Source: Crocinitomicaceae bacterium
Lineage (GTDB): Bacteria; Bacteroidota; Bacteroidia; Flavobacteriales_D; Crocinitomicaceae
Length of the DNA: 64,000 nucleotides
Assembly (NCBI GenBank): GCA_030730025.1
Contig: JANQWC010000012.1
Coordinates: 80,235-144,234, forward strand
Direction: 5' to 3'
The notes under the pieces: generated by a model
Told to the model about the DNA's origin: nothing
Database searches by the model: none
The model's input: the letters and a program-made list of their open reading frames with translations, nothing else
Shown here: positions 44,829 to 49,445 of the stretch, piece by piece
Layout: each line of letters begins with the position of its first letter
Position numbering within the stretch: the stretch's first letter is position 1
Position numbers and translations under genes: made by a program

Positions 44829-45778
44829 GTACAGCACTACGCATCGTTTTCATGGGTACACCTGCCTTTGCAGTGCGCATTTTAGACGAGCTCCATCAAA
44901 GTCAGCATAATGTTATTGGCGTGGTCACGGTTGCCGACAAACCAGCGGGCAGGGGTCAACTCATGCACCAAAGCGCGGTCAAGACCTATGCGCTCGCACA
45001 CCAATTGCCTTTATTGCAACCCGATAAACTCCGCAACGACGACTTCCTCGAGGCGCTTTCGCAATGGCAAGCCGATGTATTTGTAGTGGTGGCCTTTAGA
45101 ATGCTCCCAGATGTGGTTTGGAAGCTCCCAAGACTTGGCACGTTTAATTTGCATGCATCTTTGTTGCCGGCCTACCGCGGCGCAGCACCCATCAATTGGG
45201 CGCTCATCAACGGCGATAGCGAAAGTGGTGTGACCACGTTTATGATCAATGAAGAAATTGATGCCGGAAGTATTCTCAAGCAAGCTAAAGTTGAACTCAC
45301 ACCAAACATGACGGCAGGCGTTTTACACAACCAACTTCAAGAACTTGGTGCTGCACTCACCCTACAGACTTGTAATGACTTGGCTTCGGGTCACATTGAG
45401 CCAAAAGCACAAACGCCCATTTCGGGTAAGCGCGCATTGGCCCCCAAACTTTTCAAGGAAAATACAAAAATAGACTGGGCACTACCCGCCCAAGAAATAC
45501 ACAATCTTGTCAGAGGCCTCGATCCGTATCCAGCGGCATGGTGTCAGCTTTGGTCCGAACAAAAAGAGACATGGGTACAATTCAAAATTTTCAATACATC
45601 TGTATCCGATGCGCCATGTACTCGCCCAGATGGGCCACAAGCGTACAAAGAAGGCATCCTCTTCCCATGCGGCGAGCACACCACTTTGTTGATCAAAGAA
45701 ATTCAGATGGAAGGCAAAAAGCGCATGGACGCCAAAGCCTTTATGGCAGGCAATGACCTACAGCTCTTCCGTTATTGA
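44825..45778 (+). CDS. fmt: methionyl-tRNA formyltransferase
   Basis: Fmt formylates initiator Met-tRNA with 10-formyl-THF. The N-terminal RIVFMGTPAFAVRIL, NLHASLLPAYRGAAPINWALINGD near residues 112-135 (the SLLPxxRGxAPI signature with its His/Asp partners) and the C-terminal oligonucleotide-binding part (NLVRGLDPYPAAW) are all present. The 317 aa length is normal. The ATG overlaps the MATE stop by 4 bases. The 3' end overlaps the convergent TonB_C gene by 7 bases. Confidence 0.96.
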   Translation: MSTALRIVFMGTPAFAVRILDELHQSQHNVIGVVTVADKPAGRGQLMHQSAVKTYALAHQLPLLQPDKLRNDDFLEALSQWQADVFVVVAFRMLPDVVWKLPRLGTFNLHASLLPAYRGAAPINWALINGDSESGVTTFMINEEIDAGSILKQAKVELTPNMTAGVLHNQLQELGAALTLQTCNDLASGHIEPKAQTPISGKRALAPKLFKENTKIDWALPAQEIHNLVRGLDPYPAAWCQLWSEQKETWVQFKIFNTSVSDAPCTRPDGPQAYKEGILFPCGEHTTLLIKEIQMEGKKRMDAKAFMAGNDLQLFRY

Positions 45779-46947
45779 GGAATATTCAAAGAGATGCCAA
45801 AACGCATTGGGTAAACACCTGCAGTAGTTCCTTCTTTGAACATGCTGAGGATGGCATAATTAGCGAAAAATCCAAAATATCCGTAACCTGCGCGCACTGT
45901 AGCATCTAACATCCAGGTGTTGAGGTTGAATTTAGATTTGGTGATGTTTTCAAAATCATTGCCATTGGCATAGGTGCCCGTAAAGCGTTGGTGACTGTAC
46001 AAACGGACGCCGCCAATAACGCCAGCATTGAAATAAAAAGACTTTTTAAAGGCCTTATTGGCCGTGAAATCTAAAAGAACTGGAACCGTCATGTAGGCGC
46101 TATAAAGCGAATTACGTTTGTATTCCTGATTGATGTTGCTTACGGCAAAAACAGTATCTGCAGTGTGTTCGATGACATAAGAAGACGTGATTTCGGTGGT
46201 GCCAAAGTTAAAGCCATAGCCGGTTGTGATACCGAAAACATCGCCAATTAAGTTGAACTTATGTTGAAATGCATTGAAGTTTAACAAGATACTTTTGGCC
46301 GAATTGTTTTCCCAATATGGTGTAGTAGAGAAGGTGGTAGTTGGGTCGAGAAAACCTATCGTATTGAGCTGAAAACCCAATTCAAAACCGGCCCAATGTG
46401 CTTTTGTGCTGTTTTCAAATTCGTCTTCAAAATCGAAGTCATCATCTATCTCTAAGTCGAGGTCAAAAATAATTTGCAGGCGATAAGACGCTACTATTGG
46501 CGTTCCGTTTTCATCTAGTGCAGGTATCCAGAGCGGCATACTGCGGACAATCTCAAGAGCAGCGCTATCGAGTGCCGCGTTGTAACCCATTTCGATGAGC
46601 GGGTTGCTTAGCTGGCCATCGGTACCAATCTCAAACGCAACATAAACAGATTCTCCCCAAGGAAAGGTCTCGTTGGTGTCGGCAAAAATGAAGCTTTCTA
46701 CGGCGTCTTTCAGATACATATCTAGTGCTTCTTGCCCACCCGGAAACTGTGGTGTGCTGCGGTCCTCTGCTTCAACTGTAATGTCCATCACTTGAGTGAT
46801 TTGGATGGGCGGCTCGGCTATCTCGACTACTTTTAAATTACTTTGACTACTTGTATCTATTTTTTCTACGAGTTGTGGCTTTTCTAGAACTTGGGCATTG
46901 GCCAAAAAACACAACAAAACAGCAATAGAGGCGAATATCTTTTTCAT
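45772..46947 (-). CDS. exported TonB C-terminal domain / outer-membrane beta-barrel hybrid
   Basis: This 391-aa protein has a signal peptide (MKKIFASIAVLLCFLANAQ). At about residues 60-165 a TonB_C-type domain is visible: STPQFPGGQEALDMYLKDAV, VYVAFEIGTDGQLSNPLI, ALEIVRSMPLWIPA. After an acidic stretch (EIDDDFDFEDEFEN) the rest (about 180-391) alternates like an outer-membrane barrel and ends YPMRFGISLNIPQ. I know TonB_C domains at the end of inner-membrane TonB proteins; fusion to a barrel is unusual. It lies downstream of the TPP-controlled receptor but has its own promoter box. Confidence 0.72.
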   Translation of the reverse strand: MKKIFASIAVLLCFLANAQVLEKPQLVEKIDTSSQSNLKVVEIAEPPIQITQVMDITVEAEDRSTPQFPGGQEALDMYLKDAVESFIFADTNETFPWGESVYVAFEIGTDGQLSNPLIEMGYNAALDSAALEIVRSMPLWIPALDENGTPIVASYRLQIIFDLDLEIDDDFDFEDEFENSTKAHWAGFELGFQLNTIGFLDPTTTFSTTPYWENNSAKSILLNFNAFQHKFNLIGDVFGITTGYGFNFGTTEITSSYVIEHTADTVFAVSNINQEYKRNSLYSAYMTVPVLLDFTANKAFKKSFYFNAGVIGGVRLYSHQRFTGTYANGNDFENITKSKFNLNTWMLDATVRAGYGYFGFFANYAILSMFKEGTTAGVYPMRFGISLNIPQ

Positions 46948-46974: not shown

Positions 46975-49227
46975 TTAAAACTGGATGTTCATTTTCACTA
47001 AAAAATGTCTGCCAGCTTGCGGATAGTAAAAGTTTTCAGTGGTGGTTTGGCCGCCGTATTGGTAGCTGAACGTATAGCCATTGTTGGCATACAGCGCATT
47101 AAACAAGTTATTGACCAACAAACCAATTTCCATTTCTTTGGCAAAGTTCTGCTTGACTTTATAATTGCAAATGAAATTGGTAAAGGTGAATGGATCGAGG
47201 CTTCTGGCTACATTAGAGGTGTTGTCTAGGTATTGACGCGAGACATATTTACTTTGTAGGGCCAATGAAAGCGCGGCTGTAGGCTGATACTGCAAACCTA
47301 AAGTATGAATGAAATTGGGTGAAAATGCCAAATCAGTGGTGCCGTGTTCAATTTGCGCCTGGGTATAATACGGCGCTTCGTCTAGGTAGACATCGACATA
47401 TTCGACGAAATTCAAGATCTTGTTCTGGCTGAGTGTTGTTGCGCCTTGCAGACGCCATTTTTCACTCATTTGGTAAGCAAATTCAAGCTCCAAGCCCGCT
47501 CGGTAGCTTTGGTCTACGTTGGTGCGGGTATAGCCACCTACGTCATTGATTTGGCCCGTTAAAACCAACTGATCTTGGTAGTACATTAAGAACAAATTGG
47601 CTTGCGCCGTCCAGCGCTTGTAGGCGGTTCGATAGGCGAGTTCTGCATCGTACATGCGCTCTGGCAAGGGTCTATTTTCAGGGGTGCTTTCTCTGAAATC
47701 GCGGCGAACGGGTTCTCGGTTGGCAAGCCCAACAGAACCAAATATTTTGTGCGTCCCCATCGTTTTGACAAACGCCATCTTTGGATTGAAAAAATGGTAT
47801 TGCACATTTTGCGTGACGTCAGACAACACACCACTGACTTGGTCAACACCCAAAAATGAATAGGCAATGGCGCGGTATTGCAAGTCGAGTTGGAGGTCCC
47901 AGCCCTTTCTTGTATAGTTTGACTTCAGATACGTACTCAACTCCGATTTATTGGCGGAGTTATCATAATAGCGCTCGTAAATTTGACTATTGGATGCAAA
48001 TTCGGCCCAAATGATCTCGCCAAAATGCTCACCAGTATAGCGGTTTGCAGCGCCACCCAAGGTAAACTTCCAGAATTCGGAATATTGATGATTGAACCCA
48101 TAAATCAGACCGACAAAGTGGTTGTCTAGCCAACGACGGCGGATCAGATCAGTACTCATAATAGAATCTGTACCGACTACAACTGGTGCAAGACCGTAGA
48201 CTGAGAGGTCATCTTGAGTTCTGTATTCTTCGTAGTAGCCTCTTCCATAGGTGTAATGTGCTGCAACATTCAAATTGGTTTTAGCAGAAAAGCGATGGAT
48301 AAAATGCAATTGATAGTTGTCTTGATTGTAGTTGTCTACTTGGTTGGCGTAGGTATAGTAATTGTATGTTCTACCAGCATTCAATAGATTTGCTGTTTCC
48401 ATCTCGCTGAGGCCATTGCGCGCCGCGTAGTCGAGCATGCCTTGTTCATCTGCACGGTAACGGCTTTCGGGCGTGCCATACCAGGCCTGATACGTGCGCT
48501 CAGCGCCATTCAAGACCACCGCTTTCCAGATAGATTTTTTTGTCAAATACGTGGCGGTGAGCGCGAGCGAGCGCAAATCGGCACGCGAGCGGTCTAGGTA
48601 GCCATCTGAACGGATTTCTGAGAGGCGCGCGTCTAAAGAAAAGCGGTTGTTGAGCAAGCCTGTAGAAGCCTGCACCGTACCTCTGAGGGTGCCAAAAGAA
48701 CCTCCGGATAAATCGATGCGGGCCGCTGGCAGCGCGCGCAAATCATTGGTTTTGATATTGACACTGGCACCAAAAGCAGCCGCGCCATTGGTAGAAGAAC
48801 CTACGCCGCGCTGGACCTGCATGTTTTCGATGGAGCCTGCGAGGTCGGGCATATTGACCCAATAGACATCGTGAGATTCTGGGTCATTGACCGGCACACC
48901 GTTGATCGTTACATTGATGCGGCTGGCATCCACGCCCCGGATCCGAAGGCCACTGTAACCGATTCCGGCGCCGGCATCGCTGGTGGTCACGACCGATGGC
49001 GTAAACTCCAAGAGCGTGGGCATATCTTGACCAAAATTCTTGGTGTTGAGCGCCGATTTAAAAACGGTTGTGTTGTTGGGCGCATCTTTGGCGCGCAAAC
49101 CGTTGACCACAACACCCTCGACATCTTGAATGCGGCGGATGGTATCGCCAGCAACTTTAGCTGGGTTCTGCTGCGCCAAAACGACATGGCTTAGCCCAAA
49201 TATAAAAGGTAAAAATCTTGTTTTCAT
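46975..49227 (-). CDS. TonB-dependent receptor under TPP-riboswitch control (probable thiamine-related uptake)
   Basis: This outer-membrane receptor (750 aa) imports a scarce nutrient with TonB energy. A signal peptide (MKTRFLPFIFGLSHVVLAQ) is followed by a TonB-box-like GVVVNG near residue 40 and the plug (LRIRGVDASRINVTINGVPVNDPESHDVYWVNMP, about 95-130). A 22-strand-type barrel then ends in an aromatic HFLVKMNIQF. It lacks the N-terminal carboxypeptidase-like domain of SusC receptors. A TPP riboswitch in its leader points to thiamine or a thiamine precursor as substrate (inference from regulation). Confidence 0.93.
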   Translation of the reverse strand: MKTRFLPFIFGLSHVVLAQQNPAKVAGDTIRRIQDVEGVVVNGLRAKDAPNNTTVFKSALNTKNFGQDMPTLLEFTPSVVTTSDAGAGIGYSGLRIRGVDASRINVTINGVPVNDPESHDVYWVNMPDLAGSIENMQVQRGVGSSTNGAAAFGASVNIKTNDLRALPAARIDLSGGSFGTLRGTVQASTGLLNNRFSLDARLSEIRSDGYLDRSRADLRSLALTATYLTKKSIWKAVVLNGAERTYQAWYGTPESRYRADEQGMLDYAARNGLSEMETANLLNAGRTYNYYTYANQVDNYNQDNYQLHFIHRFSAKTNLNVAAHYTYGRGYYEEYRTQDDLSVYGLAPVVVGTDSIMSTDLIRRRWLDNHFVGLIYGFNHQYSEFWKFTLGGAANRYTGEHFGEIIWAEFASNSQIYERYYDNSANKSELSTYLKSNYTRKGWDLQLDLQYRAIAYSFLGVDQVSGVLSDVTQNVQYHFFNPKMAFVKTMGTHKIFGSVGLANREPVRRDFRESTPENRPLPERMYDAELAYRTAYKRWTAQANLFLMYYQDQLVLTGQINDVGGYTRTNVDQSYRAGLELEFAYQMSEKWRLQGATTLSQNKILNFVEYVDVYLDEAPYYTQAQIEHGTTDLAFSPNFIHTLGLQYQPTAALSLALQSKYVSRQYLDNTSNVARSLDPFTFTNFICNYKVKQNFAKEMEIGLLVNNLFNALYANNGYTFSYQYGGQTTTENFYYPQAGRHFLVKMNIQF

Positions 49228-49265
49228 TTTCTAAAAAATTAAACAAGAATAAGGGGCTCTTCTTG
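49228..49265 (-). terminator. putative riboswitch expression platform (terminator-like hairpin)
   Basis: On the minus strand CAAGAA and UUCUUG (6 bp, 10-base loop) are followed by a U-rich tract reaching the receptor ATG. The loop holds CCCCUUA (plus 49250-49256), the exact complement of UAAGGGG in the aptamer (plus 49353-49359). Pairing of these two would break both the aptamer and the hairpin. The mechanism is inferred. Confidence 0.5.
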
Positions 49266-49287
49266 ACAGTGTTTGTAAGTTAAGCGC

Positions 49288-49364
49288 GTCATCTTCCCTT
49301 CGCTGGCATTATCCAAATCAGGTTCAATGGGTATGTTCTCAGCCTTCCGGCACCCCTTAGAGAC
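49288..49364 (-). ncRNA. TPP (thi-box) riboswitch
   Basis: The minus strand carries the conserved elements in order: GGGGTGCC, GGCTGAGA, ATACCC, GAACCTGAT, GGATAATGCC and AGCGAAGGGAA. The P1 helix is GTCTCT with AGATGAC (one bulged U), and P3 is a minimal GCC-GGAA-GGC hairpin, so the aptamer is only 77 bases. It ends about 60 bases before the TonB-dependent receptor ATG. TPP binding should turn the receptor off. Confidence 0.96.
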
Positions 49365-49445
49365 GGTACAAAAATACGTTTTTTTAAATGACCCCTTCCA
49401 AATCAAAATTAAAATTCATTTCAACTTGGATAAAAAGAATTGATC

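Follow-up and report, generated by a model that had tools for sequence, protein, structure and literature searches.

The window, the whole 64,000-nt stretch of Crocinitomicaceae DNA analysed here, contains a TPP riboswitch aptamer and the gene of a TonB-dependent receptor on the same strand; all features described below lie on the minus (-) strand. The receptor gene (46975..49227) starts with the ATG at 49227-49225 and encodes an OMthi/OMR1-like protein of 750 aa, recognised by its Pfam Plug domain (PF07715, E 3.1e-12). The aptamer (49278..49367) ends 50 nt before the receptor start and matches the full RF00059 model (positions 1-105) with 57.6 bits in cmscan (E 1.1e-8; gathering score 54.3), which confirms the riboswitch proposed in the earlier note for this leader. 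Its P3 is a 3-bp GCC/GGC stem capped by a GGAA loop, so that the minimal P3 described before is also seen in the model alignment. The match is the only one to RF00059 in the genome, a 1.78-Mb, 81%-complete MAG.

The receptor lacks the N-terminal CarboxypepD_reg domain present in longer relatives (PF13620 in L033); the genus relatives that have this domain are ~820 aa long. The 750-aa form is shared by a subgroup composed of the window receptor and those of L032, L034, L035 and L039, which retains the leader and the MKTR start. The closest solved structure, 9gbc, is a partial match covering profile positions 3-259. In addition, the gene of a 391-aa outer-membrane beta-barrel protein with a TonB_C-like part (45772..46947; PF13568, weak PF03544) starts 27 nt past the receptor. 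A homologue of it adjoins the receptor in 10 genus loci, and the protein is a probable operon partner of the receptor.

A Bacteroidota-type -7 promoter box, TATTTTTG (consensus TAnnTTTG, 49369..49376), is located just upstream of the aptamer, assigned from its sequence and from the recurrence of the motif. The box occurs in 60 of 70 family leaders, its distance to GGGG being exactly 12 nt in 47, vs a mean of 3.6 and a maximum of 9 in shuffles, and a TTTG at 49399-49402 may represent the -33 box. Because the -7 box lies at a conserved distance upstream, the 5' end of the transcript probably coincides with that of the aptamer; a start downstream of the aptamer, which the earlier note had named as a way in which its proposal could fail, is not indicated.

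Receptor relatives with taxon names assign the window to Crocinitomicaceae, Flavobacteriales. TPP riboswitches are present in 106 of 120 Crocinitomicaceae genomes. We retrieved 123 further TPP riboswitch loci and sorted them by downstream gene: 71 leaders, the window counted, precede a receptor homologue, and the remainder mostly precede thiamine biosynthesis genes. A separate group in genus g7 (L065, L081, L096, L121 and L122) has the riboswitch before a class I SAM-dependent methyltransferase of ~241 aa (PF08241), which is not among the known thiamine genes; three of these five leaders show strong pairing against the aptamer. Receptor homologues range from Flavobacteriales to Bacteroidales and follow TPP aptamers both in the genus and across the phylum, including Cytophagales, Sphingobacteria and Bacteroidales, with RF00059 above cut-off at 32 of the 53 receptor-homologue loci scanned. 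The riboswitch element and the receptor are thus members of known families. The element shares with the RF00059 THI element the aptamer core, a thiamine-related downstream gene and the expected OFF switch, and differs from the textbook types only in its downstream expression platform. TonB receptors controlled by TPP riboswitches (OMthi/BT2390 and OMR1) were predicted earlier, and OMthi has been tested genetically in Bacteroides (PMC5613172). The window receptor resembles them in being TonB-dependent, behind a TPP riboswitch and from Bacteroidota, the likeness resting on the plug domain and the riboswitch. The unnamed receptor specificity pointed out in the earlier note is accordingly not new in kind, OMthi and OMR1 having been known before (PMC5613172).

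Nearly all of the 71 receptor leaders share one order of elements, A-F-E-B-C-AUG-D. Element A (UAAGGGGU, 49352..49359) belongs to the aptamer, where it forms J1/2 and the 5' strand of P2, and its exact complement makes it the partner of B when the aptamer is open. Element F (GCUUAACUU, 49277..49285) directly follows P1 and pairs with the E/B junction in the Vienna fold of the post-aptamer RNA. Element E (CAAGAA, 49260..49265) was proposed before as the 5' arm of a terminator hairpin and is delimited here by the conservation of E:C pairing. Element B (GCCCCUUA, 49250..49257) is the hairpin loop able to pair with aptamer strand A and is recognised by the recurrence of the CCCC loop. Element C (UUCUUGUUU, 49241..49249) takes either the upstream E or the coding-region D as its partner, according to the post-aptamer folds; its UUCUUG (49249-49244) is followed by the U-rich run UUUAAUUUUUU. 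Element D (AAACAAGA, 49216..49223) corresponds to codons 2-4 of the MKTR start, and its pairing with C encloses the start codon. The exact 24-nt platform pattern was absent from the viral contigs searched, and no phage copy was seen.

Comparison and folding both support the complementarity of A and B. The exact match between UAAGGGG (49359-49353) and CCCCUUA in the downstream loop, pointed out previously, is present and conserved: the A:B duplex amounts to -11.6 kcal/mol, and 96.7% of A:B cells are paired among 49 distinct family leaders. Leaders of other TPP-controlled genes in the family (n=48) also contain anti-aptamer pairing, built from different sequences, with a mean of 8.2 Watson-Crick pairs vs 5.1 in shuffled sequences. 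Since the pairing is so consistent within the family and recurs at other TPP-controlled genes, the complementarity is above chance. Beyond the family, a CCCC-loop hairpin with unrelated stems (for example AAAGCUA-CCCCU-UAGCUUU in L217) recurs across Bacteroidota: of 31 receptor leaders counted, 17 contain it, vs a mean of 1.0 and a maximum of 5 in shuffles, and 13 of these belong to the 26 more distant leaders in the set; the strength of this test is to be read in the light of its having been framed after the sequences were inspected, and of shuffles that tend to destroy the CCCC run itself (CCCC in 19 real leaders vs 5.9 shuffled). A broader test in other orders, accepting any hairpin loop within 162 nt with complementarity to the 5' strand of the aptamer, is weak, with p<=0.05 at 3 of 26 loci.

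The E:C hairpin carrying the CCCC loop is likewise supported by comparison and folding. Its cells are paired in 86.3% of cases, with two-sided changes in five of six pairs among the 49 leaders; the window and L035 stand one column off in E, which slightly reduces the E:C count of these two. In L037 and L174 the stem is exchanged for ACAAGU:ACUUGU. The F:E pairing has a probability of 0.90 in the window and exceeds 0.5 in 40 of 69 leaders (Vienna, post-aptamer RNA). It reads GCUAAUU:AAUUAGC in most relatives and GUUAAUU:AAUUAAC/AAUUGAC in L089 and L074, and is missing from some leaders, such as L102 and L049. In the 49-leader alignment, the structure combining A:B and E:C has 6 pairs with two-sided changes vs 2.7 when shuffled, and that combining F:E and C:D has 11 two-sided cells vs 3.8; the permutation and slide controls remove relatedness only in part. 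High sequence conservation keeps covariation within the family modest, and four of the eight A:B pairs are invariant.

A stronger partner for UUCUUG than CAAGAA, also conserved, is provided by codons 2-4 of the receptor. The pairing UUCUUGU:AACAAGA closes a hairpin around the AUG at -7.6 kcal/mol, vs -3.9 kcal/mol for E:C. When the aptamer was set aside in folding, mimicking the TPP-held state, 67 of the 69 distinct leaders gave C:D with p>0.5 and 5 gave E:C. The pairing of the AUG reaches 0.76 vs 0.56 in 44 other genes of the window (p 3e-5). Moreover, all 57 MKTR starts use ACA for codon 3 and AGA or AGG for codon 4, whereas elsewhere in the same genes ACA makes up 31% of threonine codons and AGA plus AGG 32% of arginine codons; the 57 receptors are related, so these frequencies are not multiplied as independent probabilities. 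As judged from this codon use together with the folds, codons 3-4 of the receptor are constrained as RNA. When the coding region no longer provides D, a copy in the untranslated leader pairs with C (L029, L064, L115 and the group L047/48/50/51): in L029 the replacement hairpin is UCUUG-CAAAA-CAAGA, and in the L047 group UUGUUAAA/UUUAACAA finishes at the AUG. C:D was observed in the Crocinitomicaceae leaders only.

These pairings suggest two alternative sets, one composed of the aptamer, F:E and C:D with the AUG buried, and the other of A:B and E:C with the AUG open. The earlier statement that the two folds are mutually exclusive does not hold strictly, as A:B and E:C cross and a pseudoknot is topologically possible; the conservation of both suggests that they belong to the same state. 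We propose that the TPP riboswitch acts most likely on translation initiation, repressing an OMthi/OMR1-type receptor whose cargo would be thiamine or a phosphate of it, and give this reading a probability slightly above one half. Transcription would begin at the upstream boundary of the aptamer. Once TPP is bound, strand A would be locked within the aptamer and F would pair with E, leaving C available for D, so that the AUG would be buried in the C:D hairpin over codons 2-4 (OFF). Without TPP, A would pair with B, the CCCC loop that E:C closes, in a kissing or pseudoknot interaction, E would hold C, and the AUG would be open (ON). The comparison with relatives thus points to concealment of the start codon as the mode of control, and not to a halt in transcription.

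The energetics bear on the two states differently. The start region is buried in the post-aptamer fold, as expected of a translational riboswitch, whereas the calculated energies give no opening in the free state. The pseudoknotted set of A:B and E:C lies outside what standard folding represents; the ligand-free OFF fold has an energy of -28.3, vs -11.4 for the nested part of the ON fold plus -11.6 kcal/mol for A:B, so the ON state is the weaker one, and C:D still forms when A:B is forced. Because nearest-neighbour energies leave the AUG unfreed without TPP, the ON state needs either kissing-loop stabilisation or co-transcriptional trapping. The opening of the AUG without TPP would thus follow from the comparative evidence combined with an assumed stability of the kissing loop or an assumed order of folding.

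The best surviving alternative, although unlikely, is a switch with two partners only, in which A:B alone would open the ribosome site in the absence of TPP through a steric, coaxial or mRNA-stability effect and E:C would have no role. The truncated ligand-free transcript is indeed predicted to form A:B, and the biosynthetic TPP leaders use a single anti-aptamer segment that pairs with either the aptamer or the start codon. In the biosynthetic leaders L009, L011, L014, L019, L020 and L024, CAUUCCUAAAGU has two alternative partners, ACUUUAGGGGUG in the aptamer and GGAAUG(AC) in the start region, and by these pairings the leaders of this type are a clean, predicted two-partner start-codon switch. 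In the receptor leaders, however, B and C are adjacent without overlap, so A:B fails to displace C:D; E:C is conserved, and its counterparts in other orders have unrelated yet paired stems.

Transcription attenuation is less probable still. Here TPP would free CAAGAA/UUCUUG as an intrinsic terminator followed by its U run, and without TPP the pairing of UAAGGGG with CCCCUUA would block it. The U-rich run directly after the hairpin in the window and its nearest relatives fits this scheme, as do the conserved pairing of E and C (86% of cells) and the opposition of A:B to the hairpin in a nested model. The hairpin that the earlier note had interpreted as a terminator is present, but its terminator role is unsupported: at -3.9 kcal/mol the stem is AU-rich and not GC-rich, and a terminator scan calls none. 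The OMthi operon transcript of B. thetaiotaomicron shows no significant change with thiamine, and the authors regarded the level at which TPP riboswitches act in Bacteroidetes as uncertain (PMC5613172). The unchanged transcript speaks against attenuation and fits translational control. Comparison and folding also reveal that the U run is interrupted in L029, L037, L040, L041, L049 and the MFKDMKTR group, with the other elements largely kept. On the weak stem, the negative scan and the loss of the U run, we reject a CAAGAA/UUCUUG terminator as the main mechanism. That C:D is incidental and control takes another route is very improbable: Lys/Arg-rich signal-peptide starts such as MKTR are frequent and pairing comes easily to an A/U-rich leader, but the invariant ACA and AGA/AGG in all 57 starts, the untranslated copies that substitute for a lost D and the folding of C:D in 67 of 69 leaders argue against it.

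The proposed start-codon switch can be compared with the translational TPP riboswitch of E. coli thiM, in which a segment pairs with either the aptamer or the ribosome site and conceals the Shine-Dalgarno sequence. Unlike in thiM, no Shine-Dalgarno sequence is expected here; it is the AUG that the hairpin covers, by means of codons 2-4, and a CCCC-loop hairpin faces the P2 strand. In Flavobacterium johnsoniae, of a phylum without Shine-Dalgarno sequences, structure in the start region tunes initiation (PMC6847099). Because Bacteroidota lack these sites, the textbook model of hiding the Shine-Dalgarno sequence is inapplicable as such. We found no description of a start-codon platform without a Shine-Dalgarno sequence in the open-access papers searched; subscription papers may hold one.

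The thiamine economy of the organism bears on the ligand of the receptor. The MAG encodes four TPP-enzyme domains and ThiL, and no ThiC, ThiE, TPK or PnuC was detected in its 81%-complete sequence, where absences may be assembly gaps. The genus counts are firmer: among 61 genomes, ThiL is present in 60, TPK in 5 and PnuC in 53, with ThiE above cut-off in one and ThiK above cut-off in none. Since precursors are unusable without ThiE, the cargo is likely thiamine or its phosphate, and import of a precursor, which the earlier note had allowed, is unlikely, given that the MAG yields no ThiC or ThiE hit and that ThiE scores above cut-off in only one genome of the genus. One exception in the same genus is L036 (G065), where a second TPP riboswitch precedes a ThiM homologue with ThiE just downstream; the genus otherwise looks auxotrophic, and this locus is a salvage operon.

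In Bacteroides, OMthi accompanies pnuT and tnr3 (a thiamine transporter and a thiamine pyrophosphorylating enzyme), often in one operon, and B. thetaiotaomicron deleted for both OMthi and the biosynthetic operon needs more thiamine (PMC5613172). The present genus differs in that no TPK is found in the MAG or in most members, and the inspected copies of PnuC lie beside a NadR-like kinase. A role of PnuC as the thiamine transporter of the genus was considered and is not supported, as this AAA-type kinase adjoins PnuC in all seven loci fetched; Pfam AAA_28 was confirmed on the kinase equivalents in L135 and L136. In L135, PnuC lies beside a fused cytidylyltransferase/AAA_28 (NadR-like) protein and the end of the preceding ORF resembles an outer-membrane receptor, a cluster that is possibly a nicotinamide riboside uptake operon.

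As a tentative extension, with the odds against it, TonB thiamine receptors of Bacteroidota in general may be governed by a conserved pseudoknot switch, in which the CCCC loop would capture the P2 strand of the aptamer in the absence of TPP and thereby keep another strand from covering the start codon together with codons 2-4. As no thiamine kinase is recognisable in the pathway that the receptor would supply in this genus, the import may be of a thiamine phosphate that is converted by ThiL. Our analysis highlights a metabolic gap in this genus, which combines apparent thiamine auxotrophy with a riboswitch-controlled TonB receptor and ThiL, while in most members neither a thiamine kinase nor an inner-membrane transporter dedicated to thiamine is recognisable. 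For the control of the receptor, the start-codon hairpin and the CCCC-loop hairpin supply a concrete mechanism that is open to clean mutational tests.
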